Source: Sphingomonas natans
Lineage (GTDB): Bacteria > Pseudomonadota > Alphaproteobacteria > Sphingomonadales > Sphingomonadaceae
Direction: 5' to 3'
Assembly: GCF_030546695.1 (NCBI RefSeq)
Contig: NZ_JAUOTP010000005.1
Location: 1 to 64,000, forward strand
Length of the DNA: 64,000 nucleotides
Of the stretch, positions 3,065 through 50,909 are shown one piece after another. The number at the start of each line of letters is the position of its first letter. Within the stretch, counting starts at the first letter, position 1. The position numbers were made by a program, and so were the translations under genes. The notes under the pieces were generated by a model. It did not search any database, was not told the DNA's origin, and saw nothing but the letters and a program-made list of their open reading frames with translations.

Positions 3065-4891
<1,827 letters not shown>

Positions 4892-29043: not shown

Positions 29044-32000
29044 GTGACGAGTTTCTTTGCGTTTGCTCGCGTCGGAAGGATGTGGGTCCGGTTGATATGG
29101 CTGCTGGCAGCAGCGTCAGCGCTGTTGCCGGTAGCGTCCCGTGCCAACACGCCGTGCGCGGTCGGACCCGCCGCTCTTCCCGGGCTGCGCTTCACCAATG
29201 CCGGCGACGGCTCCTTCCAGCTGGTCGGTGTCCTGACCGGTGCGAACCTCAGCGCGTTCGGCCCCTGCAGTCCGCTGCCCCGCACGACCATCCGCCCGCT
29301 GGTGAACGGCACAGCAACGGCGACGCCCGGTGTCGAGGTCCCCAATGCGACGCAGCAGGGTGGCACTCTGGTCCGCGCGACCGTCACCGAGATCAATTAT
29401 CGTCCGCCTTCGCCGGGCTTTTCGGGCAGCGACACGTTCACGATCGACAATAACAACACGTCGCAAGTGATCACGGTCACCGTCTTCGTCGATCCCGCCG
29501 CCGCCAGCGCGCCCGTAGTCTCCTCGCTTTCGCCTACGAGCGGCCCGGCCGCCGGCAATACCAGCGTCACGATCGGCGGCACCGGCTTCACCGGCGCCAC
29601 TACGGTCCGGTTCGGAGCAACGGCGGCCACGGGCTTCACGGTCAACAGCGCCACCTCGATCGTCGCGACCGCGCCAGCGGGCACCGGCAGCGTCAATATC
29701 ACGGTCACTACGCCGGCGGGAACCAGCATTATCGGCGGGGGCAGCGGCTACACCTATATTGCGGCGCCCACCGCGGGCGCGACATCCGCCTCGGTGCCGT
29801 ACAATATGGCGACAGCGATCGACCTCTCGGGATCGATCACCGGAGTGCATTCCAGTATCGCCGTCGCGAGCGCACCGGCACACGGGACGACCAGCGTTTC
29901 GGGCGATGTCGTCAGCTACACGCCTACCTCAGGCTATTCGGGGCCGGACAGCTTCACCTACACCGCCACCGGCTCCGGCGGCACCTCTGCGCCTGCCACG
30001 ATATCGATCACCGTCGCTCCGCCTCCCGCGCCCGCGGCGAGCGCTCAGTCTGCGTCCGTCCCCTACGGCACCGCGACGGCAATCGACCTGTCGGGTTCGA
30101 TCACCGGCGTGCATTCCAGCGTCGCGATTTCGAGCGGGCCGGCGCATGGCATGACCAGCGTGTCCGGCGACGTGATCACGTATACCCCGACCAGCGGCTA
30201 CTTCGGCGCAGACAGCTTCAGCTACACCGCAACCGGCCCCGGCGGCACCTCCGCGCCCGCCACCGTGTCGGTCACGGTCGCCGCCCCCGCCGCGCCCACT
30301 GCGGCAGCCAGGTCGGTCTCGGCAGCACATAACACCGCAACCGCCATCGACCTGTCCGGCTCGATCTCCGGGGTGCACACAGGCACCGCCGTCGTCGGTA
30401 GCCCCGCGCATGGCACGACGAGCGTGTCTGGCGATATCGTCACCTACACGCCGGCGAATGGCTATATTGGCGCGGACAGCTTCACCTACAACGCTACGGG
30501 CCCGGGCGGCACGTCGTCGGCCGCTACCGTTTCGATCACCGTCGCCGCGCCCGCCGCGCCCGTGACGGCTGCGCAATCGGTCGCGGTGCCTTATCACACG
30601 GCCACGGCGATAGACCTGTCGGGATCCGTAACGGGGGTTCATTCCGGCATCGCCCTCGCTGGCGGCCCCACGCACGGCAGCGCCGGCATATCGGGCGATG
30701 TCGTGACCTACACGCCCGGCTCCGGCTATTCAGGGCTCGACAGCTTCACCTACACCGCTACCGGCCCCGGCGGCACCTCCGCGCCCGCCACCGTCAGCAT
30801 TACCGTCGCGGCGCCGCCGGCGCCCGTGGCAGGTGCTCGATCTGCTTCCGTGCCCTACGACACTCCCGTCGCCATCGATCTCTCGGGATCGATCACGGGC
30901 ATGCACGCCAGCATCGCCGTAGCCGGCACCGCCGCGCACGGCACGACCAGCCTCGCCGGAGACGTCGTGACCTACGCGCCTGCGAGCGGTTATTACGGTG
31001 CGGACAGCTTCACCTATACCGCGACGGGCCCTGGTGGCACGTCGGCGGCGGCGACCGTATCGATCACCGTTGCCGCACCCGGCGCGCCCACAGTCGCCGC
31101 AAGATCCGTTTCGGTGCCCTACGAGTCTGCGACGCCCGTCGATCTGTCCGCATCGATCTCCGGTGTGCACTCCAGCATCGCCATCGCGAGCGGACCGGCC
31201 CATGGCAGCACCAGCGTGTCGGGCGACGTCGTCACCTACACGCCGAGCCCCGGCTATTCCGGCGCGGACGGCTTCAGCTATTCGGCCACCGGCCCCGGCG
31301 GCACGTCCACGCCTGCCGTCGTGACGATCGCCATCGCCGCGCCCGCCGCTCCCGTCGCAGCCGCGAAGTCGGTTTCGGTGCCGTACGGCGCCGCCAGCCA
31401 GATCGACCTTTCCGAGTCCGTCACAGGCGCACATTCCGGTCTGGTCATCGCCGGCGCGCCGTCGCACGGGACCGCAACCGTCTCGGGCGATGTCGTCACC
31501 TACATGCCCGCGACGGGCTATCACGGCCCTGACGCCGTCACCTATGTCGCTACCGGGCCGGGCGGCACGTCGGCGCCCGCCAGCATATCGATCACGGTGG
31601 CCGACCCCGCCGCTCCCGTCGCCGTGCCCAGCTCGGCTTCGGTGCCCTACCGGAGCACCGGCACGATCGATCTGTCGACGTCCATCACAGGCGTGCACTC
31701 GAGCATTGGAATCGCGAGCGCGCCGTCGCACGGCACGGCGACGCTCAGCGGCGACGTGATCACGTACGTGGCGTCGCCCAGCTTTTCCGGAACGGACAGC
31801 TTGACCTTCACCGCTACCGGCCCCGGAGGCACGTCGGCCCCGGCCATAGTGACGATCACCGTCGCTACGCCGGATTCGCCGACCGCCTCGGGCCCCGCCG
31901 CGGTCAGTGCCGTATACGGCGCCGCAACCACGATCGACCTCTCGGGATCGATCACTGGCGTCCACACGAGCATCGCCGTCACCACGCCCGCGCACGGTAC

Positions 32001-34707
32001 GGTCGGCGTCGCGGGAGATGTCGTCACCTACACGCCCGCTGCCGGCTATTTCGGGCCGGACAGCTTCGCCTTTGCCGTGACCGGCCCGGGTGGCGTCTCC
32101 TCGCCGGAGACCGTCAACCTGACCGTGGCGGCACCGGCGACGCCGGTCGTCTCCGCTCCCGCCGGCGTGACCGCCGCGTATGAGGCGCCGACCGTCATCG
32201 ATCTTTCGGGTTCGGTCACGGGCGTGCACAGCGCGATCGCGATCGTGGCAGCGCCCGCGCACGGTGCGGCAAGCGTCAGCGGCGATGTGGTCACCTATAC
32301 GCCGGTCGCCGGCTATTTCGGCGCGGACAGCCTCAGCTACGCGGCCACCGGTCCCGGCGGCACGTCGCCACCCCAGGTCATCGCGCTCACCATCGCTGCG
32401 CCCAGTGCTCCGATCGTCGCCGCCAAGGCCGATGTCGCGGTCGGCTACGGCACACCGCTCGCGATCGATCTCTCGTCGCTGATCAGCGGCGTTCACAGCG
32501 CGACCTCGGTCTCGCTCGCGCCGGCCCACGGCACGGCCAGCGTCGCTGGCGATGTCGTCACATACACGCCTGCTGCGGGCTATTCGGGGCTGGACAGCTT
32601 CGCTTTCACCGCGACCGGGCCCGGCGGCACCGCCAGTGCACAGACGATCGGCCTCACGGTCGGTGCGCCCGTCATGACGATCGCCGGCGAGCCGTTGCCG
32701 GGCGGGCAGATCAACACCGCTTATGCCGCTGCCGTGTCTGCCTCCGGTGGCACCGCGCCCTATAGTTACGCCGTCACATCCGGCACGCTGCCCGCCGGCG
32801 TGACTTTGTCCCCCACGGGCGCCCTCACCGGCACGCCGACGGCGAGCGGAGACTTCGCCGTCAGCGTGACCGCAACCGACAGTTCCACCGGCTCGGGCCC
32901 GTTCACCGCGGTCAAGTCCTATGTGCTGGCCATCGCGGCACCCCAGCCGCCGCAGGCGCAGGACGCGCCGGCCTCGGCCGTCACCGCCTCGACCGTCACG
33001 AGCAGCACCTCGATCGACATCGATCTCTCGGCACTCGTCACTGGCGCATATGACGACGTGCGCGTCGATACGCCGCCGCAGCACGGTAACGTCGTCGTCA
33101 ATCGCGTCGGCCAGCAGCGGCTCCTCGCGCTCGGCGAGAAAAAGCCGCTGGCCAGCACGAGCTTCGTCGCCACCTACACGGCAGCGGCAGGCTATAAGGG
33201 CGCGGACGCTTTCACGTTCGTCGCGATCGGCCCGGGCGGCACCTCGCGTCCCGCAGCGGTCGCGATCGACGTCGTCGGCGCGGCGCCGACCGCCCGGTCC
33301 GTCACCGCCGCCACGGTCAACGGCCAGGCGGCGATCGTCGATCTCACGACCGGCGCGGGCGAAGGCCCGTTCACCGCAAGCACGATCGCCTCGATCACGC
33401 CCGCCGGCTCGGTCTCGGCGATACTGGTCGAGGGCGGCACAGCTACCGCCCGGACCTATCAGATGAGGATCACGCCGCTCGGGCGGTTCAGCGGCACGGC
33501 CGTCATCGGCTATACGCTCAGCAACATATTCGGCACGTCTGCGGTCGCGACGGTCACGGTCACCGTGACGGCGCGCCCCGATCCCTCGCAGGATCCGGCG
33601 GTGCGCGCGCTCAGCCTCGCCCAGGCCGAGGCTACCCGGCGCTTCGCCGCGACCCAGATCGACATTTTCAGTCGGCGGACAGAACAGTTGCATGGCGGCG
33701 GTCGCGGTAGCCAGCACGGGACGATGGGGATCCGCGTCAACGGCAGCGATCGTCCGGCTTCTACAGCGGGGCTGACGACAGATAGCACATCCGGCATCGT
33801 CCAGATTGACGATGGCGGTCAGCCGGCGCTCTCGACGACAGCCGCCAGCGGCGCCCCGGCCGAGGCGACGGACGACGGAAACCGCGCGATCGGCTCGGCC
33901 GCGGTCTGGAGTGGCGGCGCGATTATGATCGGCACGCGCGATGCCACCACGCGGCGCGACCGGTTCAGCGTCTCGAGCTCCGGTCTCAGCGCCGGGATCG
34001 ACGTCAAGCTGACCGACAGACTGATCGTCGGCGCGGGCGGAGGCTACGGCGGCGAGCGCTCGCGCATCGCCGAGGGCGCGGCGCATCTCACGGCCGATAG
34101 CTGGATGGGCTCACTCTACGGCAGCTTCCAGCCGGCCCGTGGCGCGTTCCTCGATGGCGTGCTGGGCATTGGTGGGCTCGACTTCGCCACGCGCCGCGCG
34201 GTCTCGGCCAATGCCGCGACCGCGCGCGGTCAACGCGACGGATCGATGGTCTTCGCCTCGCTCGCCGCCGGCATCGACCGCAGCAGTGATCGCACCTCCT
34301 TCTCCGCCTTCGCCCGCGCCGAATATATGTCGGCCCGGCTCGGCGCTTATTCGGAAGAGGGTGCCGGAATGTACGATCTCGCCTTCGGCAGACGCTCGCT
34401 CGAATCGCTCTCCAGCGTCCTTGGCGTGCGTGCCGGAATGACCCTGGGCGCGATCATGCCGCGCGTCCGCTTCGAATGGCGGCACGAGTTCAGCGGCAGC
34501 GGCGCGCAGGCGCTCGATTATGCCGATCTCGCCGGTCTCTCCTACGCGATCACCAACGATCGATGGCTGCGCGACGCCATCCAGCTCGAGGCCGGTACGG
34601 GCGTGAATCTGGGGGGCGACTGGACGCTGGGGCTCGACATCGGCGCCGCGCTCGGACGGGGAAGCCGGCTGGGTTCGGGCAAGGTCAGTGTCGGAGGAAA
34701 GTTCTGA
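29044..34707 (+). CDS. giant repeat-containing autotransporter adhesin-like protein
   Basis: A 1887-residue type V-secreted protein starting at GTG. A Sec signal occupies about residues 1-35 (LIWLLAAASALLPVASRA). Next are a unique region, an IPT/TIG domain (about 155-247) and about eleven tandem Ig-like/cadherin-like repeats of 88 residues (248-1209). Each has VPY..ATAIDLSGSI, VHSS, AHGT, SGDVVTYTP and DSFTYTATGPGGTSAP elements. A putative-Ig domain and degenerate copies follow (1210-1520), then a helical linker near AQAEATRRFAATQ and a beta-barrel from about 1615 to the final KVSVGGKF. Such proteins usually sit on the cell surface and bind cells or surfaces. The receptor is unknown. The gene is convergent with the glycosyltransferase operon. 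Confidence 0.88.
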   Translation: MTSFFAFARVGRMWVRLIWLLAAASALLPVASRANTPCAVGPAALPGLRFTNAGDGSFQLVGVLTGANLSAFGPCSPLPRTTIRPLVNGTATATPGVEVPNATQQGGTLVRATVTEINYRPPSPGFSGSDTFTIDNNNTSQVITVTVFVDPAAASAPVVSSLSPTSGPAAGNTSVTIGGTGFTGATTVRFGATAATGFTVNSATSIVATAPAGTGSVNITVTTPAGTSIIGGGSGYTYIAAPTAGATSASVPYNMATAIDLSGSITGVHSSIAVASAPAHGTTSVSGDVVSYTPTSGYSGPDSFTYTATGSGGTSAPATISITVAPPPAPAASAQSASVPYGTATAIDLSGSITGVHSSVAISSGPAHGMTSVSGDVITYTPTSGYFGADSFSYTATGPGGTSAPATVSVTVAAPAAPTAAARSVSAAHNTATAIDLSGSISGVHTGTAVVGSPAHGTTSVSGDIVTYTPANGYIGADSFTYNATGPGGTSSAATVSITVAAPAAPVTAAQSVAVPYHTATAIDLSGSVTGVHSGIALAGGPTHGSAGISGDVVTYTPGSGYSGLDSFTYTATGPGGTSAPATVSITVAAPPAPVAGARSASVPYDTPVAIDLSGSITGMHASIAVAGTAAHGTTSLAGDVVTYAPASGYYGADSFTYTATGPGGTSAAATVSITVAAPGAPTVAARSVSVPYESATPVDLSASISGVHSSIAIASGPAHGSTSVSGDVVTYTPSPGYSGADGFSYSATGPGGTSTPAVVTIAIAAPAAPVAAAKSVSVPYGAASQIDLSESVTGAHSGLVIAGAPSHGTATVSGDVVTYMPATGYHGPDAVTYVATGPGGTSAPASISITVADPAAPVAVPSSASVPYRSTGTIDLSTSITGVHSSIGIASAPSHGTATLSGDVITYVASPSFSGTDSLTFTATGPGGTSAPAIVTITVATPDSPTASGPAAVSAVYGAATTIDLSGSITGVHTSIAVTTPAHGTVGVAGDVVTYTPAAGYFGPDSFAFAVTGPGGVSSPETVNLTVAAPATPVVSAPAGVTAAYEAPTVIDLSGSVTGVHSAIAIVAAPAHGAASVSGDVVTYTPVAGYFGADSLSYAATGPGGTSPPQVIALTIAAPSAPIVAAKADVAVGYGTPLAIDLSSLISGVHSATSVSLAPAHGTASVAGDVVTYTPAAGYSGLDSFAFTATGPGGTASAQTIGLTVGAPVMTIAGEPLPGGQINTAYAAAVSASGGTAPYSYAVTSGTLPAGVTLSPTGALTGTPTASGDFAVSVTATDSSTGSGPFTAVKSYVLAIAAPQPPQAQDAPASAVTASTVTSSTSIDIDLSALVTGAYDDVRVDTPPQHGNVVVNRVGQQRLLALGEKKPLASTSFVATYTAAAGYKGADAFTFVAIGPGGTSRPAAVAIDVVGAAPTARSVTAATVNGQAAIVDLTTGAGEGPFTASTIASITPAGSVSAILVEGGTATARTYQMRITPLGRFSGTAVIGYTLSNIFGTSAVATVTVTVTARPDPSQDPAVRALSLAQAEATRRFAATQIDIFSRRTEQLHGGGRGSQHGTMGIRVNGSDRPASTAGLTTDSTSGIVQIDDGGQPALSTTAASGAPAEATDDGNRAIGSAAVWSGGAIMIGTRDATTRRDRFSVSSSGLSAGIDVKLTDRLIVGAGGGYGGERSRIAEGAAHLTADSWMGSLYGSFQPARGAFLDGVLGIGGLDFATRRAVSANAATARGQRDGSMVFASLAAGIDRSSDRTSFSAFARAEYMSARLGAYSEEGAGMYDLAFGRRSLESLSSVLGVRAGMTLGAIMPRVRFEWRHEFSGSGAQALDYADLAGLSYAITNDRWLRDAIQLEAGTGVNLGGDWTLGLDIGAALGRGSRLGSGKVSVGGKF
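29785..32670 (+). repeat. about eleven tandem 264-bp coding repeats
   Basis: Within the autotransporter gene, units of about 264 bases (88 codons) are repeated in tandem about eleven times. Units 1-8 are most alike; units 9-11 have drifted (for example VYGAATTIDL, AYEAPTVIDL, GYGTPLAIDL). Such arrays can change copy number by recombination. Confidence 0.85.
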
Positions 34708-34756: not shown

Positions 34757-35593
34757 CTAAGCGACGAGAGCGGCGCCGATCTCCGCTCGGGACGGGCCGC
34801 GGATCGTATCGAGCCCGTCGCTGGTCCAGCGAATGAGCCCTGCGCTTTGGAACCTCGCAAGCCAGCCTTCCATCGGCCATCGCCCCCAGATGTCATGGAA
34901 CAGCCGGGCGTTGGCGACGATATCGTCGAAATGCTGGAGCGGCGGATCGTAGGTCGCATGATGTTGATGGCAGGCGATCGCCCCGCCGAGAAAGCGCAGG
35001 GGCAGTCCGGCGGTAGCTGCCCGGAAGCCGAAGTCGGTATCTTCGGCGCCGTAGCCCGCAAACCGTTCGTCGAAGCCCCCCAATGCCTCGAAACGTGCGC
35101 GGCGGATGCCGAAGGCGAGCGACCAGAACAGGCCCGGATTGGTCTCGGTGCGAACTCCGGCGCGCGGGAAGTCGCGCACCGGATGCGATGCGCCGGCCGC
35201 CAGCAGCGAGGCATCGTCCCAGACGACGCGCTCGTCGCCGGCGCCCAGATAGCGGACCTCGGCGCAGACGAGGCTGTCCTCGCGCTCCAGCAGGCCCGCG
35301 ACATCCCCGATCATCGTCGCCAGCGGAATGCAGTCGACATCGAGGAACACGAGCCGGGCACCTTTGCTCGACTGCGCCGCCAGGTTGCGCGCTGCGGCAA
35401 GCGGAAGGCCGTCCGTTTCGTGCCGGATCAACCGGATCGGCAGCGCCCCCGCTTCGATCGTGACGGGCTCGTCGCTCATGTCCACGACGATGACTTCGTC
35501 GGGCTGGAATGAACTCCGGCGCACGCCCGCGATAAGCTGCGCCAGATGCGCGGCACGGTTCTTCACGATCGTCAGCAGGCTCACGCCGCTCAT
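34757..35593 (-). CDS. GT2-family glycosyltransferase (last gene of the seven-gene operon)
   Basis: A 278-residue glycosyltransferase with a GT-A fold. The start MSGVSLLTIVKNRA is typical of GT2 enzymes, VFLDVDC is the DxD metal/nucleotide-sugar site, and the acceptor-side region ALGGFDERFAGYGAEDTDFG (with the ED motif) resembles galactosyltransferase-like C-terminal domains. No membrane segment is seen, so it is cytoplasmic or loosely attached. The ATG at 35593 overlaps the methyltransferase stop as ATGA. It probably adds one of the sugars of the product made by this operon. The donor and acceptor are unknown. Confidence 0.88.
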   Translation of the reverse strand: MSGVSLLTIVKNRAAHLAQLIAGVRRSSFQPDEVIVVDMSDEPVTIEAGALPIRLIRHETDGLPLAAARNLAAQSSKGARLVFLDVDCIPLATMIGDVAGLLEREDSLVCAEVRYLGAGDERVVWDDASLLAAGASHPVRDFPRAGVRTETNPGLFWSLAFGIRRARFEALGGFDERFAGYGAEDTDFGFRAATAGLPLRFLGGAIACHQHHATYDPPLQHFDDIVANARLFHDIWGRWPMEGWLARFQSAGLIRWTSDGLDTIRGPSRAEIGAALVA

Positions 35594-36174
35594 GATCGGC
35601 GCCACAGGTCCAGCCGATACTTTTCGCGCCGATCGGCCCGCTCGACCCTGAGGATCGGGTGCAGCCTGTCCCACAGCGCCTCGACCGCACCATCGCCCGT
35701 CTGCGGATAATCGGTCTCGCCCGTCCAGTGCACGAGCAGGATCCGCCCCCCCGGCGCGAGCGCCCCGGCGATCTGGTCCGCCGCCCGCCCGAGATCGCCC
35801 GCGTCCCAATAATAAGCGACCTCCGAGAGGATCATGAGATCGAACCGCGCCGCGCTTGGCTGCTCGCGCGGATAAGCCATCTGTTCGAACGTCACGTTCG
35901 GCTGGTCGGCGCAGCGTTTGCGCGCGCGGTCCAGCGCGGTCGTACTGACATCGATCGCGAGCAGGGCACCGCAGAGCGGCGCGAGCCGACGCGTCAGCGC
36001 ACCCTGCGCGCAGCCTATCTCGAAGCCGCGTTCGTAGCGCCGGTCCGTAATCGCCGCGATGCTGTCGTCGAACTTGGCGGCTTCGTAGCTTTCGCTGTCG
36101 AGTCCCCACGGATCCTCGTCTGCGGCGAAGATGCCTTCGAAATAATCGGCGTCGAGCGAGTTCTCATGCCGCAT
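35590..36174 (-). CDS. NodS-like SAM-dependent methyltransferase
   Basis: A 194-residue class I methyltransferase. The start YFEGIFAADEDPWGLDSESY and the SAM-binding motif FEIGCAQGAL (51-60) followed by LLAIDVSTTALDRAR closely resemble the NodS family, which N-methylates the deacetylated glucosamine of Nod factors, and related methyltransferases often paired with PIG-L deacetylases. Here the partner deacetylase gene lies directly upstream and overlaps by 11 bases. The likely role is methylation of the amino sugar freed by that deacetylase. N-methylation, as opposed to O-methylation, is an inference from NodS similarity and context. Confidence 0.85.
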   Translation of the reverse strand: MRHENSLDADYFEGIFAADEDPWGLDSESYEAAKFDDSIAAITDRRYERGFEIGCAQGALTRRLAPLCGALLAIDVSTTALDRARKRCADQPNVTFEQMAYPREQPSAARFDLMILSEVAYYWDAGDLGRAADQIAGALAPGGRILLVHWTGETDYPQTGDGAVEALWDRLHPILRVERADRREKYRLDLWRRS

Positions 36175-36850
36175 GACGGCTCTCCCAAAGATAGAGGCGG
36201 TCGCGCGCGGGCATGCGCTGCTTCGCGCGCGGCAGGCGGAAGCCCGGGCCGAACGACGCGGTCAGCTGGCTGCGATGCGCCTGCAAGGCGTGGCGGCGAA
36301 CGCCGACCGGCATCGCCTTCGTCTCGAATGCGCGACCGGACGGGGCGGTCTCGCTCCACACCGCATATCGAAAAAGCGCCAGCGAACCGGGCGTGCGGCG
36401 ACATACCGCGCGGGCGAGCTGGAAGGCCGCGGCATGATCGCAATGCGGCTCGTCGCCCGCCGTCACCGCGATCGCATCGATGCGACGAGTTCGGCACAGG
36501 GCCAACAGACGATCCTGCGTGCGCCGGAGCGCGCCAGCGTCGGCGGCATGCGGGTCGGCGTCCCGCCAGCCGAGAAAGACGGGCGCAACCGCGCCCTGCT
36601 TGGCGAGCCGACGCAGCGCCAGCCCCGCTTCGCGCTCGCGGAGGGTGATCAACCGTCGGCGCGCGCCGGCGTCATCGCACGCATGCGAGCCGGATCCGTC
36701 GGTCATGAAGGCGACCGCACCCAGCCGCCCCGCGCGCGCCGCCTCGGCGATGAGCGCCCCCGCCCCCAAAGTCTCGTCGTCGGCATGGGGCGCCAGGATC
36801 AGCCAGCGCGCTCGCGCGAAGATGCTCCGGTTCAGCGGGATCGCTACCAT
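36164..36850 (-). CDS. PIG-L family deacetylase
   Basis: A 228-residue zinc-dependent N-deacetylase. The metal motif PHADDETLG (residues 21-29; His22, Asp25) corresponds to the family AHPDDE motif, and the third ligand is probably in EPHCDHAAAF. PIG-L enzymes remove the acetyl group from N-acetylglucosamine in GPI anchors, mycothiol (MshB) and bacillithiol (BshB). The ATG at 36850 overlaps the stop of the upstream acyl-CoA-dehydrogenase-like gene and has GAGGA ahead; an in-frame start at 36871 is less likely. The product fits a GlcNAc-containing glycoside built by the glycosyltransferases of this operon. Confidence 0.9.
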   Translation of the reverse strand: MVAIPLNRSIFARARWLILAPHADDETLGAGALIAEAARAGRLGAVAFMTDGSGSHACDDAGARRRLITLREREAGLALRRLAKQGAVAPVFLGWRDADPHAADAGALRRTQDRLLALCRTRRIDAIAVTAGDEPHCDHAAAFQLARAVCRRTPGSLALFRYAVWSETAPSGRAFETKAMPVGVRRHALQAHRSQLTASFGPGFRLPRAKQRMPARDRLYLWESRHAA

Positions 36851-37935
36851 AAGGGGTCCTCGCCCCAGCAATCCCGGTCCAGCCAGGCGAGCGCGGCCTG
36901 ATCGCGCGCATGATCGGGGCCGGCCTGGCGCAGATACAGGCTGAGATCGCGGATGATCTTGTCGGCGCGCTCGCCGTCGAACGCACTGCGCGTGCCGATC
37001 GCGCGCGCCGCCAGCTCCATCACGTCGAGCGCGGCCCGCTCGACGATCCCGCGCGTCATCTGCGCGAAAGCGGGCGTGTCGGGATGCTCGTCCGCGGCGC
37101 GCTCGGCGCAGGCCTTCACCCAGAACCAGGCGGTGCGCGTCGCCGCCACCGCCGCCCCGAACTTCGCGCGCTGCAGCGGATCCGCGCGCGCCGTCGCCGA
37201 CATCGCCGCACGCAATTCCTGCAAGAGGCCCTCGATCCCGCCGAGCTGGACTGCGGTGAAGCGCCAGGCGCCGCCCGTGAAGCGCGGATCGCGATCATAA
37301 TCGCCGGGCTCGCCGAGCAGGTCGTTCGCCTGCACCGGCACGCCATCGAGGCGGTACAGCCCGCTCAGGGTCGCGCGCATGCCGCGCACGCGCCAGCCGC
37401 GCGTATCGGCGCGGGCCGTGTCGTTGGCGGGCACGATCGCGACACGCCTCTGCCCCTCGGGCGGCTGAACCGTCACTAAGGAAAAATCGAGGCCGCCCGC
37501 GCCGCTGGCGAAGCTCTTCGCGCCGGTCAGTGCGCCCGACGCCCCATCGAAGGAGAGCGCGACGCCGGGGCTGGGCTCGGTCGCCCAGACGCCGAAGAAG
37601 CGCCCCGCCGCGAGCTGCGAGCCGAGCCAATCCTGTTGTGCCGCGCTGCCATACCAGTCGAACAGGCGCAGCGCGTTGACATGGCCTTCGAACAGGCGCC
37701 CGACGCTCAGATCCCCCCGGCCAACGAGGCGGAGCGCATCGAACATCGCCGCATGAATCGCCCGCGCGCTCTCGAACACGTCGCCGCCGCTGGCAAGCGG
37801 CGCGAACCTGCGATGAAGGCCGCACGCTGCGACCGCCGCGAGGCTTTCGGCCGGAAAGCGCGGCGTCTCGTCATAGCCCGCGCCGAGCGCGCACAGCTGC
37901 TCGAACAGGTCCCGGTCGGCATCGCCTGCGGTCAT
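36844..37935 (-). CDS. acyl-CoA-dehydrogenase-fold flavoprotein, atypical
   Basis: A 363-residue protein with the acyl-CoA dehydrogenase fold: an N-terminal helical domain, a middle beta domain with GVWATEPSPGVAL and SGALTGAKSFASGAG (FAD/substrate region), and a C-terminal helical domain with RAIGTRSAFDGERADKIIRD. The catalytic Glu motif of true dehydrogenases (EGTxE, present in the isobutyryl-CoA dehydrogenase at 44879) is missing; the matching place reads LRQAGPDHARDQ. Such deviants include flavin monooxygenases and amino-sugar N-oxygenases. It overlaps its neighbours on both sides (ATGA upstream). A role in oxidising the sugar or its amine is possible but unproven. Confidence 0.85.
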   Translation of the reverse strand: MTAGDADRDLFEQLCALGAGYDETPRFPAESLAAVAACGLHRRFAPLASGGDVFESARAIHAAMFDALRLVGRGDLSVGRLFEGHVNALRLFDWYGSAAQQDWLGSQLAAGRFFGVWATEPSPGVALSFDGASGALTGAKSFASGAGGLDFSLVTVQPPEGQRRVAIVPANDTARADTRGWRVRGMRATLSGLYRLDGVPVQANDLLGEPGDYDRDPRFTGGAWRFTAVQLGGIEGLLQELRAAMSATARADPLQRAKFGAAVAATRTAWFWVKACAERAADEHPDTPAFAQMTRGIVERAALDVMELAARAIGTRSAFDGERADKIIRDLSLYLRQAGPDHARDQAALAWLDRDCWGEDPLW

Positions 37936-38972
37936 GCGCGCTGCTCCGCCATCGCAAGCAGGAAGGCGGCAGCACGCGCCGGTCCGTCCGGATCATGCAG
38001 CTTCGCGCCGACTCCGGTCGCTGACGCGGCGGTCTCGGCGAGGACCGCCTGCCAGTCCTCCGCCACCGGCCAACTTTCGCGAACAACCGCCGCCCTGGCA
38101 GCGCGCAGCTGCCGGGCCTTTGACCTTTGTTCGTCGAAGGGCCGCGCTTCGGGCAGGCACAGGAAAGGCTGCCCGGCCGCGAGCACCGCGCTCACGACCC
38201 CGTCCCCGCCCCCGCCGATGACGACGGTCGCACGGTCGATCTCGGCGGCCACGTCATCGACCCAACCCAGCATCTGAAGGTTTGCGGGGGCATCCGAGAC
38301 AGGCTCGATCAATCCGGCGACCCGCCAGTGGCGATCGGGTGTCGCCCGCGCCGCAGCGGCGAGCGCCGGTCCATCGATCATGCTCCCGCCTGCGCCGACG
38401 ACGACGAGGATATCGTCGCGCGGCGCATCCGGTGCCGGCTCCGACCGATGCGCGGTGAGCCCCGAAAAATAGGTCGTTTTCGCGCGCACCCAGTCCGGTG
38501 TCGCCGGATCGTCGAGAGCCTCGTCGAACGGCGCGATCAGCGCGTGTGCCGCGCGGAACGCGTCGAGATGCGCCGGGTCGTCGCGCAGCCCGGCGAGGCG
38601 GACATAGACGACCGGCGTCGCCGCCAGACGCGCGAGCATCGCCACCTCGACCGACACGTCGACGACGATCAAGGCGGGCCGCTCGTCCGCGATCCAGCGG
38701 CTCACGATCGCGACCCGCTCGCGGATGCCATCATGGTCGATCGGTGCAAAATGGAGCGCCTGCGCGCGATGCGCCTCGCCATCCGCGCCCGCGAAGCCCT
38801 GTTCCGGCAGGCAATCGTCGGGCAGCTCGATCGTCCGGACCCCGCCGGTCCGGCCCGCCAACCCGGTGCCGAGCAGTACGAGCCGCTCTCCTATCGAGTC
38901 GGCAAGGGCCAGCGCGCGCTGGCGATGCCCGTCGCCATGATGGTGGACATAATAGCCGATCGGACGCGCCAT
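37932..38972 (-). CDS. MurG/GT28-like glycosyltransferase
   Basis: A 346-residue GT-B-fold enzyme. The N-terminal loop YYVHHHGDGHRQRALAL and the C-terminal nucleotide-sugar site GGGGDGVVSAVLAAGQPFLCLPEARPFDEQ-like region (short parts GGGGDG, PEARPFDEQ) resemble MurG and related GT28 proteins that use UDP-sugars. No transmembrane helix. The ATG at 38972 shares one base with the stop of the upstream GT2 (TGATG), and the stop overlaps the next gene (ATGA). It is therefore one of three transferases with different folds expected to work in series. The sugar is unknown. Confidence 0.83.
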   Translation of the reverse strand: MARPIGYYVHHHGDGHRQRALALADSIGERLVLLGTGLAGRTGGVRTIELPDDCLPEQGFAGADGEAHRAQALHFAPIDHDGIRERVAIVSRWIADERPALIVVDVSVEVAMLARLAATPVVYVRLAGLRDDPAHLDAFRAAHALIAPFDEALDDPATPDWVRAKTTYFSGLTAHRSEPAPDAPRDDILVVVGAGGSMIDGPALAAAARATPDRHWRVAGLIEPVSDAPANLQMLGWVDDVAAEIDRATVVIGGGGDGVVSAVLAAGQPFLCLPEARPFDEQRSKARQLRAARAAVVRESWPVAEDWQAVLAETAASATGVGAKLHDPDGPARAAAFLLAMAEQRA

Positions 38973-39886
38973 CAGGCGGCGTCCGCCAGCCGCATGTCGT
39001 GCGGCATCGGCGGCAGCGCGGCCTCCTCCTGCACGATCCGGCGCTCGCCTTGGGGGTGCCCCCTCAGCGCGCGGCGCCATTCGGCCCGCGCCTGCCAGTG
39101 CGTGAAGGCCGGTGCGACGAGCGCGTCGCCCATGCCGGCCTCGCCGTGCAGCCGGCGCATGTCGTCCGCCATTCCGCCCGCCGCGCGGCCGTCCTGGCGC
39201 GGCGAGACATAGGTCCACACGCTCGCCGGATGCGCGAGCCGCCCGCCCACCGTGATCGCCGCATCCACCAGAGCGCGGTCCTCGCCCAGCGCCAGCAGCG
39301 GCACGCCGCCGGCCGCGCGGTAGAGGCTCGTCGGCAGAGCGAGGCTCGCGCCCGTATGATCGCCGTGGCGCGGCGCCGGATCCCAGGGCCGCGGATCGAT
39401 CGCATCCTCGATCGCGCGGACCCGCTCCCAATAGGCGTCCCACAGATGGCGGGCATTCTGCACGAGCGGCGCGAGCGGTTCCTCGGGATCGATTACGATC
39501 CGACCGCCGATCATGTTCGCGCCGCCGGCGGACGCCGCCAGATTCGCGCCGATCCAGGAGGGCGGCGGCCGGCAGTCGGCATCGGTCGACAGCAAAAGCC
39601 CGGCGGGACTGACCGCCGCACCCAGATCCATCGCCCGCCGACGCGCCGACCCGGCATGCGCGAGCGCCGGCGGAAACGACGCTTCGTCGAGATGCAGCTG
39701 CAGCCGGCTGCCCGGCCGTGCCGCGATCACCCGGACCAGCTCCGCCGAGCCGTCGTCGCTATTGTTGATGCACAAAGCGATCGGGATCAGCCCGTCCACA
39801 TCCTGCGCCGCCAATGCTTCGAACAGCCGCGGCAGTCGCGCGGCCTCGTTGCGCGCGGGCACGCAGACGCAAAAGGGCGGGGTCAT
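38972..39886 (-). CDS. GT2-family glycosyltransferase
   Basis: A 304-residue GT-A glycosyltransferase. It starts CVCVPARNEAARLPRLFEAL, has LCINNSDDGS and the DxD-type site LLSTDADCRPPPSW, followed by ALGEDRALVDAAI in the acceptor region. The start at 39886 overlaps the upstream GT4 stop (ATGA). No membrane segment was found, unlike processive synthases, so it likely adds a single sugar. Product and donor are unknown. Confidence 0.87.
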   Translation of the reverse strand: MTPPFCVCVPARNEAARLPRLFEALAAQDVDGLIPIALCINNSDDGSAELVRVIAARPGSRLQLHLDEASFPPALAHAGSARRRAMDLGAAVSPAGLLLSTDADCRPPPSWIGANLAASAGGANMIGGRIVIDPEEPLAPLVQNARHLWDAYWERVRAIEDAIDPRPWDPAPRHGDHTGASLALPTSLYRAAGGVPLLALGEDRALVDAAITVGGRLAHPASVWTYVSPRQDGRAAGGMADDMRRLHGEAGMGDALVAPAFTHWQARAEWRRALRGHPQGERRIVQEEAALPPMPHDMRLADAA

Positions 39887-40992
39887 GCGGCAGCGACCTC
39901 CAGATCGTTGGCCGCGTCCGAATGCGACGCGGGAAGCATGCGCGCCGACATGATCTCTTCGTAAAGCCGTTCGTAGCCGTCGATCATCGCTCCGGCATCG
40001 CACTTGCGCTCTGCGCGGGCTCGACAGGCCAGGCGCGAAAGCCCGAGCGCGGCGCGCGCCGCCTCGGCCAGCGCCCGCGGATCGTCGGGCGTCGCCAGCA
40101 CGCCGCTCGTCGCATCGAGGATCGCGGGGATCGCGCCGCGCGCATACGCGGCCACCGGCGTGCCGCAGGCCAGCGCCTCGGCGACGACCAGCCCGTAAGG
40201 CTCTTCCCAGCGCGGTGTGCACAGGAACGCGCGCGCACCGCCGATCAGCCGGCCCAGCGCGCCATGATCGAGATGACCCAGATATCGCGCTTTCGGCCCG
40301 AGCTTGGGTGCGATCTCGGCCTCGTACCAGTCGCGATCCGAGATCGGGCCGGCAATCCGCAACTCCATGTCCAGCAGCCGCGCCGCCTCGATGGCGTGAT
40401 CGAGGCCCTTCTCCGGCACGATGCGACCATACCAGACGAGATAGGGCTGCGCGTCGGGCACGAGCCGGAACGGGAAGCGCGCGAGATCGACGCCATTCTC
40501 CACGACCCGATCGATCGGTACGATCGGGCTCCACAGCCCCCTGATCGCTTCCGAGACCGCCACGAACCGCATCGTCTCCGCGCGGCACAGCCTGATGCCG
40601 CTCTCGAGCCAGCAGAAGGGCGGCGTGTGCAAGGTCGTCACCATCGGCGCCGAAATCGTGTCGGCCATCGTCACCGGCAGATAATGAAGCGAATTGTTGT
40701 GGATGATGTCGAAAGACCGGTGCCGGAGTGCGGACATCAGCGTCAGATAGGCATGATGCTCGCGGAAGAAGGTGACATCGACGGCCTCGGCGGTCCCTGT
40801 GCCGAGCAAAGCCGTCTCGTCGCAGATCGCCTCGTTCTTCAGATCGGGATCCGAGCGCGTCGATGCGAACAAGGTGACGTCATGTCCGCGCGCGGCGAGC
40901 GACGTCGCGAGCATGTGCGTATGCATCTCCAGGCCGCCGGCGAACGGCTCGCCGATCGCATGCTTGAGGTGCGCAATGATCCCGATCCGCAT
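39883..40992 (-). CDS. GT4-family glycosyltransferase, first gene of the operon
   Basis: A 369-residue GT-B retaining glycosyltransferase. The N-terminus MRIGIIAHLKHAIGEPFAGGLEMHTH-type region (GG-x-E-x-H-T loop) and the C-terminal EEPYGLVVAEALACGTPV (E-x7-E motif) are typical of GT4, as in MshA, BshA and PimA. The ATG at 40992 is chosen over an in-frame start at 41019 because homologues begin at MRIG. It is the first gene of seven coupled genes; the AT-rich 302 bases upstream hold the promoter. In mycothiol and bacillithiol pathways a GT4 makes the GlcNAc glycoside later deacetylated by a PIG-L enzyme, which may also be the logic here. Confidence 0.9.
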   Translation of the reverse strand: MRIGIIAHLKHAIGEPFAGGLEMHTHMLATSLAARGHDVTLFASTRSDPDLKNEAICDETALLGTGTAEAVDVTFFREHHAYLTLMSALRHRSFDIIHNNSLHYLPVTMADTISAPMVTTLHTPPFCWLESGIRLCRAETMRFVAVSEAIRGLWSPIVPIDRVVENGVDLARFPFRLVPDAQPYLVWYGRIVPEKGLDHAIEAARLLDMELRIAGPISDRDWYEAEIAPKLGPKARYLGHLDHGALGRLIGGARAFLCTPRWEEPYGLVVAEALACGTPVAAYARGAIPAILDATSGVLATPDDPRALAEAARAALGLSRLACRARAERKCDAGAMIDGYERLYEEIMSARMLPASHSDAANDLEVAAA

Positions 40993-41294
40993 ATTTGCCC
41001 CGCTCGTGCGAACGCGCAAGATGCGGCTGCGTTATAGTAACGCCCTATCTCGGATAAATATCCGTTCGGCCGAATTTCATGAAAAGCTCAAGACGCGCCA
41101 TACGCTATAGAATAGAGCCGGCAAACGACACGCGGCAACAATTCATCAAAAATATCACGAGACCCAGCTGCATCCAAGATCGTGCTGCGCTCGATTCCCA
41201 CTATAAGGTCGGCTATTGTCGAAAATGCACACTATACCGAGACTATATCGAGTTCGGTTAAGCTCACGAAGCGCTGCGATCCTACTTTTGATGA
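40993..41294. other. 302-base AT-rich gap upstream of the glycosyltransferase operon
   Basis: This region has clearly lower GC than its flanks and separates the operon start from the 3' end of the acetamidase gene, so it should hold the operon promoter. Two short palindromes lie close to the operon (41051-41064 and 41075-41084). TATA-like steps (for example TATTCTATAG and TTACTATAAC on the minus strand) are possible -10 sites, none convincing. A 60-codon plus-strand frame here has no ribosome site. Confidence 0.6.
41051..41064 (-). promoter_or_regulatory. palindrome upstream of the glycosyltransferase operon, possible operator
   Basis: CGGATAAATATCCG is a perfect inverted repeat (6-bp arms) about 60 bases before the operon ATG; a second palindrome, TTTCATGAAA, lies at 41075-41084. 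Either could bind a regulator. This rests on symmetry and position only. Confidence 0.3.
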
Positions 41295-43835: not shown

Positions 43836-44882
43836 TTAGTAAGCGGGCGACCATTCCTCATCCGGCAGCGGCGCGAAGATCTGGTCGATCAGGTGGCCCG
43901 TCACCCCATCGGGCGTGGCAGGATCCCAGCGCGGCGCATTGTCCTTGTCGATCAGCAAGGCGCGCACGCCCTCGAGGAAATCGTGCCGCTGGCATACGCG
44001 CGAGGCGACCCGATATTCGACCATCATCTCGCCCGCGAAATCGGTCTGCGCGGCCCCCTGCGCGAGCAGTTCGAGCGAGACCTTGCACGCTTGCGGGCTC
44101 TTGGTGGCGAGGATTGCCATTTGCTGCCGCGCCCAGTCCGATCCGTCCGCCGTCAGTACGGCCAGGACCTCCTCAAAATCGTCCGAGGCGAACAGGCGAT
44201 CGATATCGTCGCGAAACGTCAGGATCGTGGGCTCGTCGGGCTGCCCGGACAGGCGCTCCAGGATCGCAGGTGCCTCCGCCGAAGGCCTCGCAAGCAGTTG
44301 CTGCTTGGCCTCTTCCACCCGGTCGCTCTGCAGATAATGCGTCGCCAGTCCCAGCGTGAGGCAATCCGCGCCGGTCAGTCGCGCGCCCGTCAGCGCCAGA
44401 TATTGCCCAATCCGCCCCGGCAACCGCGACAGATACCAGCCCGCCCCGACATCGGGGAACAAGCCGATCGTCGTCTCGGGCATCGCGAACATGGTCCGTT
44501 CGGTCGCGATGCGATGGCGCGCGGGCAGGCCGATGCCGACCCCGCCGCCCATCACGATCCCGTCCAGCACGCTGACGATCGGCTTGGCATACGTGAACAG
44601 CAGATGGTTGAGCTGATATTCGGTGTGGAAAAATGCCCTCGCCGCGGCGCCGTCCCCCCGCCCGCTCTCCGCCGCCGCGCGCACGTCGCCGCCCGCACAG
44701 AAGCCGCGCCCCTCGGCATGGTCGAGCAGCACCAGCTCGACCGCCGGATCGGTTCGCCATTCGAGCAAAGCCGCGATCATCGCCTCGCACATCGGCAAGG
44801 TCAGCGCATGGATCGCGCGCGGCCGGTTAAGGCGCAGTCGCCCGACCGCGCCCTCGCGCATCACGATCAGTTCGTCGGTCAT
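43836..44882 (-). CDS. 3-hydroxyisobutyryl-CoA hydrolase / enoyl-CoA hydratase family
   Basis: A 348-residue crotonase-fold protein of the long ECH_2 type. The oxyanion region GRGFCAGGDVRAAAE and GGGVGIGLPARHRIATERT plus MPETTIGLFPDVGAGWYLSRLPG are the hallmarks of 3-hydroxyisobutyryl-CoA hydrolase in valine breakdown; the F-P-D-V-G motif distinguishes it from simple enoyl-CoA hydratases. The start overlaps the stop of the acyl-CoA dehydrogenase gene (ATGA at 44879-44882). The pair would carry isobutyryl-CoA toward 3-hydroxyisobutyrate, needing a separate hydratase not seen here. Confidence 0.92.
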   Translation of the reverse strand: MTDELIVMREGAVGRLRLNRPRAIHALTLPMCEAMIAALLEWRTDPAVELVLLDHAEGRGFCAGGDVRAAAESGRGDGAAARAFFHTEYQLNHLLFTYAKPIVSVLDGIVMGGGVGIGLPARHRIATERTMFAMPETTIGLFPDVGAGWYLSRLPGRIGQYLALTGARLTGADCLTLGLATHYLQSDRVEEAKQQLLARPSAEAPAILERLSGQPDEPTILTFRDDIDRLFASDDFEEVLAVLTADGSDWARQQMAILATKSPQACKVSLELLAQGAAQTDFAGEMMVEYRVASRVCQRHDFLEGVRALLIDKDNAPRWDPATPDGVTGHLIDQIFAPLPDEEWSPAY

Positions 44883-46024
44883 CCGCGCACCAGATCGCGT
44901 CCAATGATCATCTGCATCACTTCGTTGGTGCCTTCCAGGATGCGGTGGACGCGCAGGTCGCGCAGCAGTTTCTCGATCGGATAATCCTTCAGATAGCCAT
45001 AGCCCCCGAACAATTGCAGCGCGCGATCGACGACCGACCAGCCGGTGTCCGTCGCCAGCTTCTTGGCCATCGCCGCGAACTTGGTCCTGTCGGGCGCGCC
45101 CTCGGTCACCTTGACCGCCGCCGCATAGAGCAGCATCCGCGCCGCCTGCAGCTCTGTTTCCATGTCGGCGAGCTTGAACTGCGTGGCCTGGAAATCGGCG
45201 ACCGCCTTCCCGAACTGGCGGCGCTCCTTCACATAGGCGATCGCCTCGTCCAGCGCGCGCTGCGCCCCGCCGAGCGAGCAGGCGCCGATATTGAGCCGCC
45301 CGCCGTCAAGCCCCGTCATCGCGATGCGGAAGCCCTCGCCCTCCGTGCCGATGCGGTTGGTGACGGGCACGCGTACGCCGTCGAAATTCACCTGCGCGGT
45401 CGGCTGGCTGTTCCAGCCGAGCTTGCGCTCGGGCGCCCCGAAGCTGACGCCGGGCATGTCCTTCTCGATGACGAGGCAGGAAATGCCAGCGGGTCCCTCC
45501 TCGCCGGTGCGGACCATCGTAACGTAGAGATCGTTGACCCCGCCGCCCGAGATGAACTGCTTTTGCCCGGTGACGACATATGCGTCCCCCTCGCGCACCG
45601 CCTTGGTCTTCAACGCGGCCGCATCCGATCCCGAGCCCGGCTCGGTCAGGCAATAGCTGGCGAGCAGATCGCACGAGACAAGACCGGGGAGATAGGCCTG
45701 CTTCGCCGCCCGATCGCCGAAGCGATCGATCATCCACGCCGCCATATTGTGGATCGAGATGAAGGCCGAGGTGGACGGACAGCCATAGGCCATCGCCTCC
45801 ATGATCAACGCCGCCTCCAGCCGCCCCAACCCGACGCCGCCCGATTCTTCCGAGACGTAGATCGCGCCGAAGCCGAGTGCGGCAGCCGCCTTCACCGCGT
45901 CGCGCGGGAAGATATGGTGCTCGTCCCACTCGGCCGCGAACGGGGTGATATGTTCGGCGGTGAAGCGGCGCGCCATCTCCTGGATCGCGCGCTGGTCGTC
46001 ATCCAGATCGAACGGGCTGCTCAC
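44879..46024 (-). CDS. acyl-CoA dehydrogenase, probable isobutyryl-CoA dehydrogenase
   Basis: A flavoprotein of about 381 residues from the GTG at 46024 (a TTG at 46048 would add eight). Motifs: YCLTEPGSGSDAAALKT, ITGQKQFIS-like (TGQKQFISGGG), RRQFGKAVADFQATQFKLADM and ALQLFGGYGYLKDYP with the catalytic-Glu motif ILEGTNEVMQ. Together with the overlapping 3-hydroxyisobutyryl-CoA hydrolase gene this points to isobutyryl-CoA dehydrogenase of the valine pathway. Short-branched-chain acyl-CoA specificity is inferred from context. It contrasts with the atypical homologue at 36844. Confidence 0.92.
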   Translation of the reverse strand: MSSPFDLDDDQRAIQEMARRFTAEHITPFAAEWDEHHIFPRDAVKAAAALGFGAIYVSEESGGVGLGRLEAALIMEAMAYGCPSTSAFISIHNMAAWMIDRFGDRAAKQAYLPGLVSCDLLASYCLTEPGSGSDAAALKTKAVREGDAYVVTGQKQFISGGGVNDLYVTMVRTGEEGPAGISCLVIEKDMPGVSFGAPERKLGWNSQPTAQVNFDGVRVPVTNRIGTEGEGFRIAMTGLDGGRLNIGACSLGGAQRALDEAIAYVKERRQFGKAVADFQATQFKLADMETELQAARMLLYAAAVKVTEGAPDRTKFAAMAKKLATDTGWSVVDRALQLFGGYGYLKDYPIEKLLRDLRVHRILEGTNEVMQMIIGRDLVRG

Positions 46025-46142
46025 CGCGTCGCGATCCCGGCGGGGCAAGTCGCGTCTTCGCGCGCATCGGCCATGAGCAATCCTCCTGCCGCCTCATCGC
46101 TTGTCACGCCCGGCGCCGCAAGGCACCGGCGCGGGCGGCGGA

Positions 46143-48074: not shown

Positions 48075-48255
48075 AGGATCAACTCACCTGACTGAATCGG
48101 GCACCGCCGCCGGAGCATCCTCAAAGGGTGAGACGATCGGTGCTGCATCTAGTGTAGATTAACAATATTGTCGGTGTCGGGTTCCTGAACGGCGAATGAG
48201 CCATTTTCCGCTGATCCCCGGCGAATCCCGTCCCGTCGCGAAAATCGGTCGTTCC

Positions 48256-49812: not shown

Positions 49813-50909
49813 TCCTCGGTGCGGATCAGCACCGCCTCGCCGATCAGGAAGAACAGCAGGAAGGGCGCCCAGGCGGCGAGCAGAGGCGGATAGGCGCCGA
49901 GATTGCCCATCGCGACCGCGAAATTGTCGGCGACGAAATAGAGGAAGCCTAGCGCCATGCCGATCACGGCGCGGATGAAAAGCTTGCCCGATCGCGCGAG
50001 CCCGAAGCCCGCGACCGCCGCCAGCAGCGGCATCAGGATTGTCGAGAGCGGCCCGGAAATCTTGTGCCACAGCACCGTCCGCAGCGGCCCCGTCGGCCGG
50101 CCGCTCGCCTCCAGCTCGTCGATCGCCTCCCACAAGGCGCGGAACGAGAGGCTGTCGCCATCGACGCTGGCCAGTGTGAAGCGATCGGGCAGGATCCCCT
50201 TGCCGATCGTCACCGCCGGCACGCTCCGCAGCGCGCCCGCCTTCACGTCGAACAGCTGAACCTTTTCGATCTGCCACGCCCCATTGACGAGGTGGCCATA
50301 GTCGCCGCGGGCGAGCGTCGTCAGCCGATCCTTGGTCCGGTCATAATATTCGACGCCGGTCAGCTTCGTCGCCGCCCCCTTGCCCGTGACCCGATCGACA
50401 TGGATCAGATCCTCGCCATCGCGCACCCAGACATTGTCGACGATGCCGCGCGTATCCTTGACCGGGCCGTAATCCGCATTCTGCCAGGCGGTGAGCGTCG
50501 ATGTCGCGCGCGCGACGACATGATCGTTGAACCAGAACGAGATGCCCGCGATCGCCAGACTCGCGACGCCCAGCGGCGCCAGGATCTGGTGCGCGGAGAT
50601 CCCCGCCGCCTTCATCGAGATGATCTCGCTGTTCGCATTGAGGCGGACGAGCGTGATCAAGGTGCCGAGCAGCACCGAGAAAGGCAGAAAGCGCGCGGCA
50701 ATCTGCGGCGTGCGCAGCGCGACATAATGGAGGATCGCCGCCTGCCCGTTGCCGGGATAGGCGAGGATATCGCCGGATTCGCCGAGCAGATCCAGCATCA
50801 GCAAGATCAGCACGAGCGCCGCCAGCACCGCGATCGATCGCGAAACGAAGGTCTTCGCCAGATACCAGCCCATCGTCGGCGGCACGCGAAGGCCGGGGCC
50901 CTTGCTCAT
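49809..50909 (-). CDS. lptG: LPS export permease LptG
   Basis: A 366-residue inner-membrane subunit of the LptB2FG transporter, which extracts LPS from the inner membrane and feeds it to the LptC-A-D bridge. The N-terminal TMs (TFVSRSIAVLAALVLILLML), the periplasmic beta-jellyroll middle part (about residues 130-260) and C-terminal TMs (ISGPLSTILMPLLAAVAGFGLARSG) follow the YjgP/YjgQ pattern. The ATG at 50909 overlaps the lptF stop (ATGA). Sphingomonads often have glycosphingolipids in place of LPS, so the cargo could be such a lipid; this is only a possibility. Confidence 0.92.
   Translation of the reverse strand: MSKGPGLRVPPTMGWYLAKTFVSRSIAVLAALVLILLMLDLLGESGDILAYPGNGQAAILHYVALRTPQIAARFLPFSVLLGTLITLVRLNANSEIISMKAAGISAHQILAPLGVASLAIAGISFWFNDHVVARATSTLTAWQNADYGPVKDTRGIVDNVWVRDGEDLIHVDRVTGKGAATKLTGVEYYDRTKDRLTTLARGDYGHLVNGAWQIEKVQLFDVKAGALRSVPAVTIGKGILPDRFTLASVDGDSLSFRALWEAIDELEASGRPTGPLRTVLWHKISGPLSTILMPLLAAVAGFGLARSGKLFIRAVIGMALGFLYFVADNFAVAMGNLGAYPPLLAAWAPFLLFFLIGEAVLIRTEE

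Follow-up and report, generated by a model that had tools for sequence, protein, structure and literature searches.

The occurrence of seven overlapping genes in Sphingomonas natans, which combine glycosyltransferases (GTs) with an N-deacetylase, a methyltransferase and a protein that has the fold of an acyl-CoA dehydrogenase (ACAD), raises the question of what such a set of enzymes makes. The genes fill positions 34757-40992 of the window, by which is meant the whole 64,000-nucleotide stretch of DNA that was analysed, and an earlier note had read them as a fixed-ratio biosynthetic pathway for a glycoside or glycolipid carrying a deacetylated and methylated amino sugar. Two modules, A and B, are merged in the seven-gene operon, and we consider it plausible, with a confidence somewhat short of even, that its genes serve a stress-associated pathway which makes a small glycan with a de-N-acetylated, N-methylated and perhaps flavin-oxidized amino sugar. 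From the first gene to the last, the members of the operon are:

39883-40992, minus strand: GT4 glycosyltransferase, module B, the operon's first gene (369 residues; ATG at 40992)
38972-39886, minus strand: GT2a glycosyltransferase, the module A partner (304 residues; Pfam Glycos_transf_2)
37932-38972, minus strand: GT28/GT1-like glycosyltransferase of predicted GT-B fold, module B (346 residues; PDB profile and AlphaFold model)
36844-37935, minus strand: ACAD-fold flavoprotein without the catalytic Glu, module A (363 residues)
36164-36850, minus strand: PIG-L family N-deacetylase, module A (228 residues; PF02585, 60.7 bits)
35590-36174, minus strand: NodS-like S-adenosylmethionine-dependent methyltransferase, module A (194 residues; PF05401, 65.8 bits)
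34757-35593, minus strand: GT2b glycosyltransferase with a galactosyltransferase-like C-terminal region, module B, the last gene (278 residues)

The seven frames are on the minus strand and overlap, in order, by 4, 1, 4, 7, 11 and 4 bases, which confirms the overlaps of 1-11 bases described earlier; the PIG-L gene starts at ATG 36850 or alternatively at TTG 36871. Family names were taken from Pfam and NCBIfam, and the GT4, GT2, PIG-L and NodS/Methyltransf assignments all lie above the Pfam cut-offs (for GT4, Glycos_transf_1 at 80 bits and Glyco_transf_4 at 65 bits; for GT2b, Glycos_transf_2 at 48.4 bits and Glyco_transf_7C at 30.7 bits). The GT28-like protein gave no match in the Pfam search, and is placed among the GT1/GT28-type transferases because its PDB profile matches YjiC (2.6e-8) and MurG (3e-7) and because its AlphaFold model (pLDDT 87) has a predicted GT-B-like fold, with Z scores of 27.9 to macrolide GTs (313 residues aligned) and 26.0 to MurG. 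A foreign origin judged by composition was considered and rejected, since both the G+C content at third codon positions of the operon genes (0.81-0.87) and the G+C profile of the window resemble those of the host.

If the seven families are functionally linked, their association should recur in other genomes, and this expectation of the earlier note is borne out. Relatives were gathered through the GT28-like gene, with tblastn on plasmids and in a survey covering 84,980 species genomes, and gene order was read by mapping all seven proteins together with profile hidden Markov models (HMMs). The order GT4-GT2a-GT28-ACAD-PIG-L-NodS-GT2b on a single strand matched 40 fetched loci; L145 duplicates L052, so that 39 remain, in 37 genomes, as two strains have the operon twice. 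Because these loci were picked by GT28 similarity and many come from close relatives, the count is not a frequency. The full operon is found in the Sphingomonadales, Caulobacterales and Hyphomicrobiales, in the genera Sphingomonas, Sphingobium, Novosphingobium, Stakelama, Blastomonas, Porphyrobacter, Brevundimonas, Hyphomonas, Bosea, Methylopila and Chenggangzhangella, with the closest full operons in sphingomonads and GT4 identities of 60-77% across the seven-gene loci. Many of the hosts are bacteria of soil, plants or water, and Sphingobium sp. RAC03 and Novosphingobium sp. P6W are among the strains with the full operon. Within the host's own order the GT28-like gene is sporadic, being present in 6 of 120 sampled genomes. 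Since the arrangement is conserved in 39 other loci, it is not due to chance. One genome holds, at G492:C1:1959-2450, a second GT28-like copy with three TAG stops, apparently a decaying duplicate.

The operon divides into module A (GT2a, the ACAD-fold flavoprotein, PIG-L and the NodS-like protein) and module B (GT4, the GT28-like protein and GT2b), each of which also occurs without the other. Module B is found alone in Pseudomonas, Paraburkholderia, Rhodococcus and Arthrobacter, and module A alone in other Proteobacteria, Deinococcus, Nostoc and Rubrobacter. A search for the NodS-like family in 398 Pseudomonadota genomes gave a match in 45, and in the 29 fetched NodS-like loci besides that of the window the ACAD gene adjoins NodS in 28, and a PIG-L gene is present as well in 23. 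The ACAD-PIG-L-NodS(-GT2a) cassette thus defined recurs in Gamma-, Beta- and Alphaproteobacteria, and six Beta/Gamma-type genomes carry it without any GT28 relative. It is present in plasmid records of Deinococcus radiodurans, Deinococcus sp. AJ005, Komagataeibacter, Bradyrhizobium, Paracoccus, Sulfitobacter and Sphingomonas parapaucimobilis, and was detected by HMM in Nostoc. Wherever a GT2 lies near one of these cassettes, those of distant phyla included, its best match is the window's GT2a model and not GT2b. Across 47 loci, pairwise distances are correlated among the four proteins of module A (r values of 0.84-0.93), and shared species history contributes to this correlation.

The two modules belong together. 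Two Methylobacterium-like genomes retain one complete set in spite of its being split: in both, PIG-L adjoins GT28 and the ACAD-NodS pair lies elsewhere (at 175-178 kb and 458 kb in G146, and on contigs C11 and C16 in G266). Paracoccus sediminicola has both modules, apart, on the same plasmid, and Pararoseomonas and the metagenome-assembled Hyphomicrobiales genome of locus L026 have all or most of the parts in other arrangements. In six alphaproteobacterial genomes outside the host's order (G153, G169, G189, G240, G285 and G382) a NodS-like domain lies within frames of 750-1035 residues, with weak GT2 matches inside the long frame in G153 and G189; this looks like a separate fusion family.

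What the individual enzymes might do is best approached through the most unusual member, the ACAD-like protein. Its match to Acyl-CoA_dh_1 (20.8 bits) is below the 22.4-bit cut-off, and its model (pLDDT 86.5) predicts a complete ACAD fold. Its closest solved relatives by PDB profile are the monooxygenases DszC (1.3e-17), TdsC and MsuC, with ACADs at 1e-10 or weaker, and the nitrososynthase 3mxl is also among the matches (8.5e-8). Structure alignment does not split the monooxygenase branch from the dehydrogenase branch, as TdsC (Z 34.0), TdsC/DszC (33-34) and the ACADs (31-33) are tied within 1-2 Z units. At the position of the catalytic Glu in the C-terminal helix (the YEGT-type motif), all 42 homologues are without Glu (A in 28, G in 12 and P in 2), while the window's true ACAD of the valine pathway (44879-46048) has E there; the check covers this position, and a Glu may be placed elsewhere, as in isovaleryl-CoA dehydrogenase. 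The ACAD fold includes the glycoside N-oxygenases KijD3 and DnmZ (PMC5481743), and sugar N-oxygenases of this type are group D flavin monooxygenases (PMC6165268). In sequence and predicted fold, the protein is nearest to the flavin monooxygenases of group D (DszC, MsuC, XiaF and KijD3). The operon has no separate flavin reductase gene. In Deinococcus (L147:7543-9882 and L148:7699-10062) the ACAD is fused behind a domain of about 400 residues which has no Pfam match and aligns, as a distant relation, with a neighbouring protein annotated as GH1, and this GH1-like fusion suggests a further carbohydrate context for the ACAD.

The PIG-L protein keeps the metal-binding and catalytic motifs HxDDE and HCDH (across 20 members there is little or no variation at H22, D24, D25, H136 and H139), and its best solved relatives by PDB profile are diacetylchitobiose deacetylases, followed by BshB and MshB. 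The NodS-like protein matches the solved NodS structures 3ofj/3ofk (5.7e-25) and fails the NodS equivalog cut-off (NCBIfam NF041650, 83.7 bits against 300). The two proteins are joined in two lineages, as a single protein in G492 and by one frame that covers both in G337. On a plasmid of Rubrobacter indicoceani (L151:8093-12744), a Polysacc_deac_1 protein of the NodB family stands at the PIG-L position and is followed by ACAD, the NodS-like protein, a Pyr_redox flavoprotein, whose gene is found only in this run, and GT2; the run lies near Mn-catalase and Crp/Fnr genes. Because a NodB-family deacetylase replaces PIG-L here, which is the best evidence on the point, the PIG-L step is suggested to be the N-deacetylation of a sugar. 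Nod factors are N-methylated only after deacetylation (PMC5080398). The conserved motifs, the fusions and the Rubrobacter replacement favour the succession of deacetylation and methylation that the earlier note had envisaged; the N-methylated product that it named is a prediction.

The genes around the operon point to stress. Of the 39 loci, 19 have a catalase gene directly adjoining the operon or within it. In 15 of them it precedes GT4 on the same strand, with its end 59-78 bases away, and the other four (L027, L031, L035 and L036) have it between GT4 and GT2a. Annotated records agree on the catalase, with a divergent Crp/Fnr gene, and Crp/Fnr genes are near the operon in 20 of the 40 matched loci. 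Chance adjacency to a catalase gene should be rare, because the window's genome has only four catalase-family genes in 4.56 Mb. Mn-catalase genes are near the operon in Methylopila and Bosea. Near module A are Ku, LigD and RpoH genes in Bradyrhizobium, catalase genes in Sulfitobacter and Paracoccus, Dps and catalase genes in Deinococcus AJ005, and treY- and glgX-like (trehalose) genes in one proteobacterial genome, G393; in Rhodococcus a SigB/SigF-type sigma factor gene adjoins module B.

An EcfG promoter at the operon itself was considered and rejected, since there is none upstream in the window and 38 homologous loci have 2 sites against 0.9 expected. The region concerned is:

40993-41294, minus strand: intergenic region upstream of the operon, with no EcfG-type GGAAC-N16-20-GTT site

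EcfG-type sites do lie upstream of 5 of 22 Crp/Fnr genes against 0.6 expected, but these five represent no more than about three independent lineages. The overlapping genes #3505-3509 of Sphingomonas melonis Fr1 rank with those that depend most strongly on EcfG; a promoter fusion of #3505 confirmed the dependence, which was judged to be indirect (PMC6599016). By order and annotation only, these genes look like a module B sister operon. Such sister operons, in which an SPS-like (sucrose-phosphate-synthase-like) GT-HAD gene stands beside the GT28-like gene, form a type of their own with ten loci:

L004, L005, L006, L012, L017, L018, L021, L023, L142 and L144: sister loci with the SPS-like gene

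The sister operon of Sphingomonas sp. R1 begins with this GT-HAD protein.

Under the reading given at the outset, the enzymes would be cytosolic or peripheral. Glycosyltransferases would assemble a glycan and add a residue of the N-acetylglucosamine (GlcNAc) type, from which the PIG-L enzyme would strip the N-acetyl group; the NodS-like enzyme would N-methylate the freed amine; the ACAD-fold flavoprotein would oxidize the amine or another position, acting as a group D two-component flavin monooxygenase and not as a dehydrogenase; and the remaining glycosyltransferases would extend or cap the molecule. A small glycan is suggested because hydropathy gives no evident transmembrane segment in any of the seven proteins (maximum KD19 1.87) and the conserved set includes no flippase or polymerase, and a soluble acceptor is hinted at by the SPS-like gene of the ten sister loci and by the trehalose genes that adjoin module A in G393. 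We infer the substrate, the N-methylation, the oxidation and that the product is a protective glycan which is soluble, and neither a lipid nor a polymer. The gene content and its conserved order, the two modules, the stress neighbours and the loss of the ACAD base are established.

Several points weigh against this reading. The product, acceptor and sugar donor are putative. The PIG-L and NodS-like enzymes may act on different parts of a molecule, or the latter may O-methylate. The links to catalase come mostly from Sphingobium and Novosphingobium, so that not all are independent; the window's own copy has no adjoining catalase gene, Crp/Fnr gene or EcfG site; and the match with the S. melonis genes is one of order and annotation only. 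Room for a surface glycan is left by two genes at 46143-50277, 5-9 kb upstream of the operon, which encode a processive-type GT2 (643 residues) and a flippase-like protein of the Polysacc_synt_3 family.

That last observation leads to the strongest of the alternatives, in which the operon would be a surface polysaccharide or O-antigen side locus that supplies a repeat unit or decoration for an exported polymer. The several GTs, the nearby GT2/flippase-like pair and the annotation of an S. melonis sister-operon gene as “exopolysaccharide biosynthesis protein” fit it, but valine-degradation-type genes stand between that pair and the operon, the seven proteins are without evident transmembrane segments, and no initiating transferase, polymerase or flippase/exporter was found in the operon, among the conserved neighbours or in annotated homologous loci. 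We regard this alternative as unlikely.

Somewhat further down the scale, and improbable in our view, is a membrane glycolipid, for which the operon would extend a lipid such as glucuronosyl-ceramide to a tetrasaccharide, the GTs adding GlcNAc and hexoses and PIG-L freeing glucosamine (GlcN). Sphingomonas paucimobilis makes such a glycolipid with non-acetylated GlcN, GSL-4A, to which three to four GTs and a PIG-L enzyme would be well suited, and both the sphingomonad hosts of the closest full operons and the sporadic GT28-like gene agree with it. The operon or its modules are however also found in Methylopila, Methylobacterium, Pseudomonas, Rhodococcus and Deinococcus, genera that are not known to make glucuronosyl ceramides; this alternative leaves both the methyltransferase and the ACAD unexplained; and the stress-gene company is atypical of a lipid A substitute. 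The biosynthetic reading of the earlier note is supported in part, as to families and order; its fixed-ratio pathway and its glycolipid remain predictions.

It is very improbable that the ACAD-like protein is a true acyl-CoA dehydrogenase which desaturates an acyl chain for attachment to the amino sugar, so that a lipo-oligosaccharide resembling Nod factors would result. The ACAD fold and the NodS-like and N-deacetylase parts recall such a pathway, but the catalytic Glu that the window's valine-pathway ACAD keeps is gone in all 42 homologues, and the dehydrogenase role was rejected because this base is missing; the conserved set has no acyl carrier or acyl-CoA gene, and the host genome gave no NodA-like acyltransferase match in a search in which the control genomes gave no match either. 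Least credible of all is a low-molecular-weight thiol of the mycothiol or bacillithiol type, in which GT4 would make a GlcNAc glycoside and PIG-L would free its amine for cysteine: GT4 and PIG-L do open both pathways, the PIG-L profile matches the BshB and MshB structures and the neighbours suggest redox stress, but NodS and ACAD would be roleless and the other GTs surplus, and the absence of the thiol ligases noted earlier holds, with no BshC (PF10079) match in the whole genome, where controls from Bacillus subtilis and two others were positive, and an MshC match of 181 bits, far under the 485.1 cut-off, that is probably cysteinyl-tRNA synthetase (all 14 controls match, one above the cut-off, as paralogues of that enzyme would), so that a thiol pathway was rejected.

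Other features of the window lie outside the operon. The processive GT2 and flippase-like gene adjoin two LptF/LptG genes (46143-51071, minus strand). The plus-strand gene at 29044-34707 encodes an autotransporter of 1887 residues, in which some ten Big_9/cadherin-like repeats are combined with a TIG domain and a C-terminal beta-domain. At 56589-57977 on the minus strand lies the gene for a PAS and HWE histidine kinase, a member of the family that provides input to the general stress response of Alphaproteobacteria.

Four findings go beyond the earlier note: the division into two modules, the stress genes nearby, the missing catalytic base of the ACAD and the wide ACAD-PIG-L-NodS spread. The wider cassette and its stress setting are of more interest than the operon alone. 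The cassette occurs in Alpha-, Beta- and Gammaproteobacteria, Deinococcus, Nostoc and Rubrobacter, near catalase, Ku/LigD, Crp/Fnr and trehalose genes, and may mark a metabolite of many desiccation- and radiation-tolerant bacteria. In the open-access literature, to which the search was confined, no account of the gene set was found, and no paper there has both PIG-L and NodS. The pathway appears well supported and apparently undescribed, with a chemistry that is predicted from sequence. It is possible, if doubtful, that stress-hardy bacteria of at least four phyla share an ancient mobile pathway in the form of the ACAD-PIG-L-NodS-GT2 cassette, and that its product is a new class of N-methylated, possibly N-oxidized amino-sugar oligosaccharides that act as trehalose-like stress protectants. 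For some non-symbiotic proteins annotated as “acyl-CoA dehydrogenase” and “nodulation protein S”, a different, common role is suggested.

Comparison with known systems places the operon among several pathways without equating it with any of them. With mycothiol and bacillithiol synthesis (MshA-MshB and BshA-BshB) it shares a GT4 and a PIG-L deacetylase of GlcNAc glycosides, whereas its host is without BshC or an above-cut-off MshC and the operon has extra GTs, a methyltransferase and a flavoprotein. Like the N-oxygenases KijD3, DnmZ and ORF36, its flavoprotein has an ACAD fold without the dehydrogenase base and belongs to an amino-sugar gene set, but in sequence it is nearer to DszC/MsuC than to the nitrososynthases, and the operon has no dedicated flavin reductase or nucleotide-linked deoxysugar genes. 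The S. melonis Fr1 genes #3505-3509, whose identity is judged by annotation and order, resemble the Sphingomonas sp. R1 sister operon in the succession of their overlapping genes (GT, GT28-like, GT2b-like, GT4, exopolysaccharide-type protein), and differ from the operon in starting with an SPS-like GT-HAD, ending with a pyruvyl transferase and having no module A. The Nod factor pathway (NodC-NodB-NodS) differs in its symbiotic rather than stress neighbours, in the NodS equivalog status that the operon's methyltransferase does not reach, in having no extra ACAD-fold enzyme and in its CE4 deacetylase, where most operon loci have PIG-L; yet it has the same combination of a GT2, an N-deacetylase and a NodS-family N-methyltransferase, which in Nod factors act sequentially on a GlcNAc oligosaccharide, and the Rubrobacter deacetylase belongs to the Pfam family of NodB itself.

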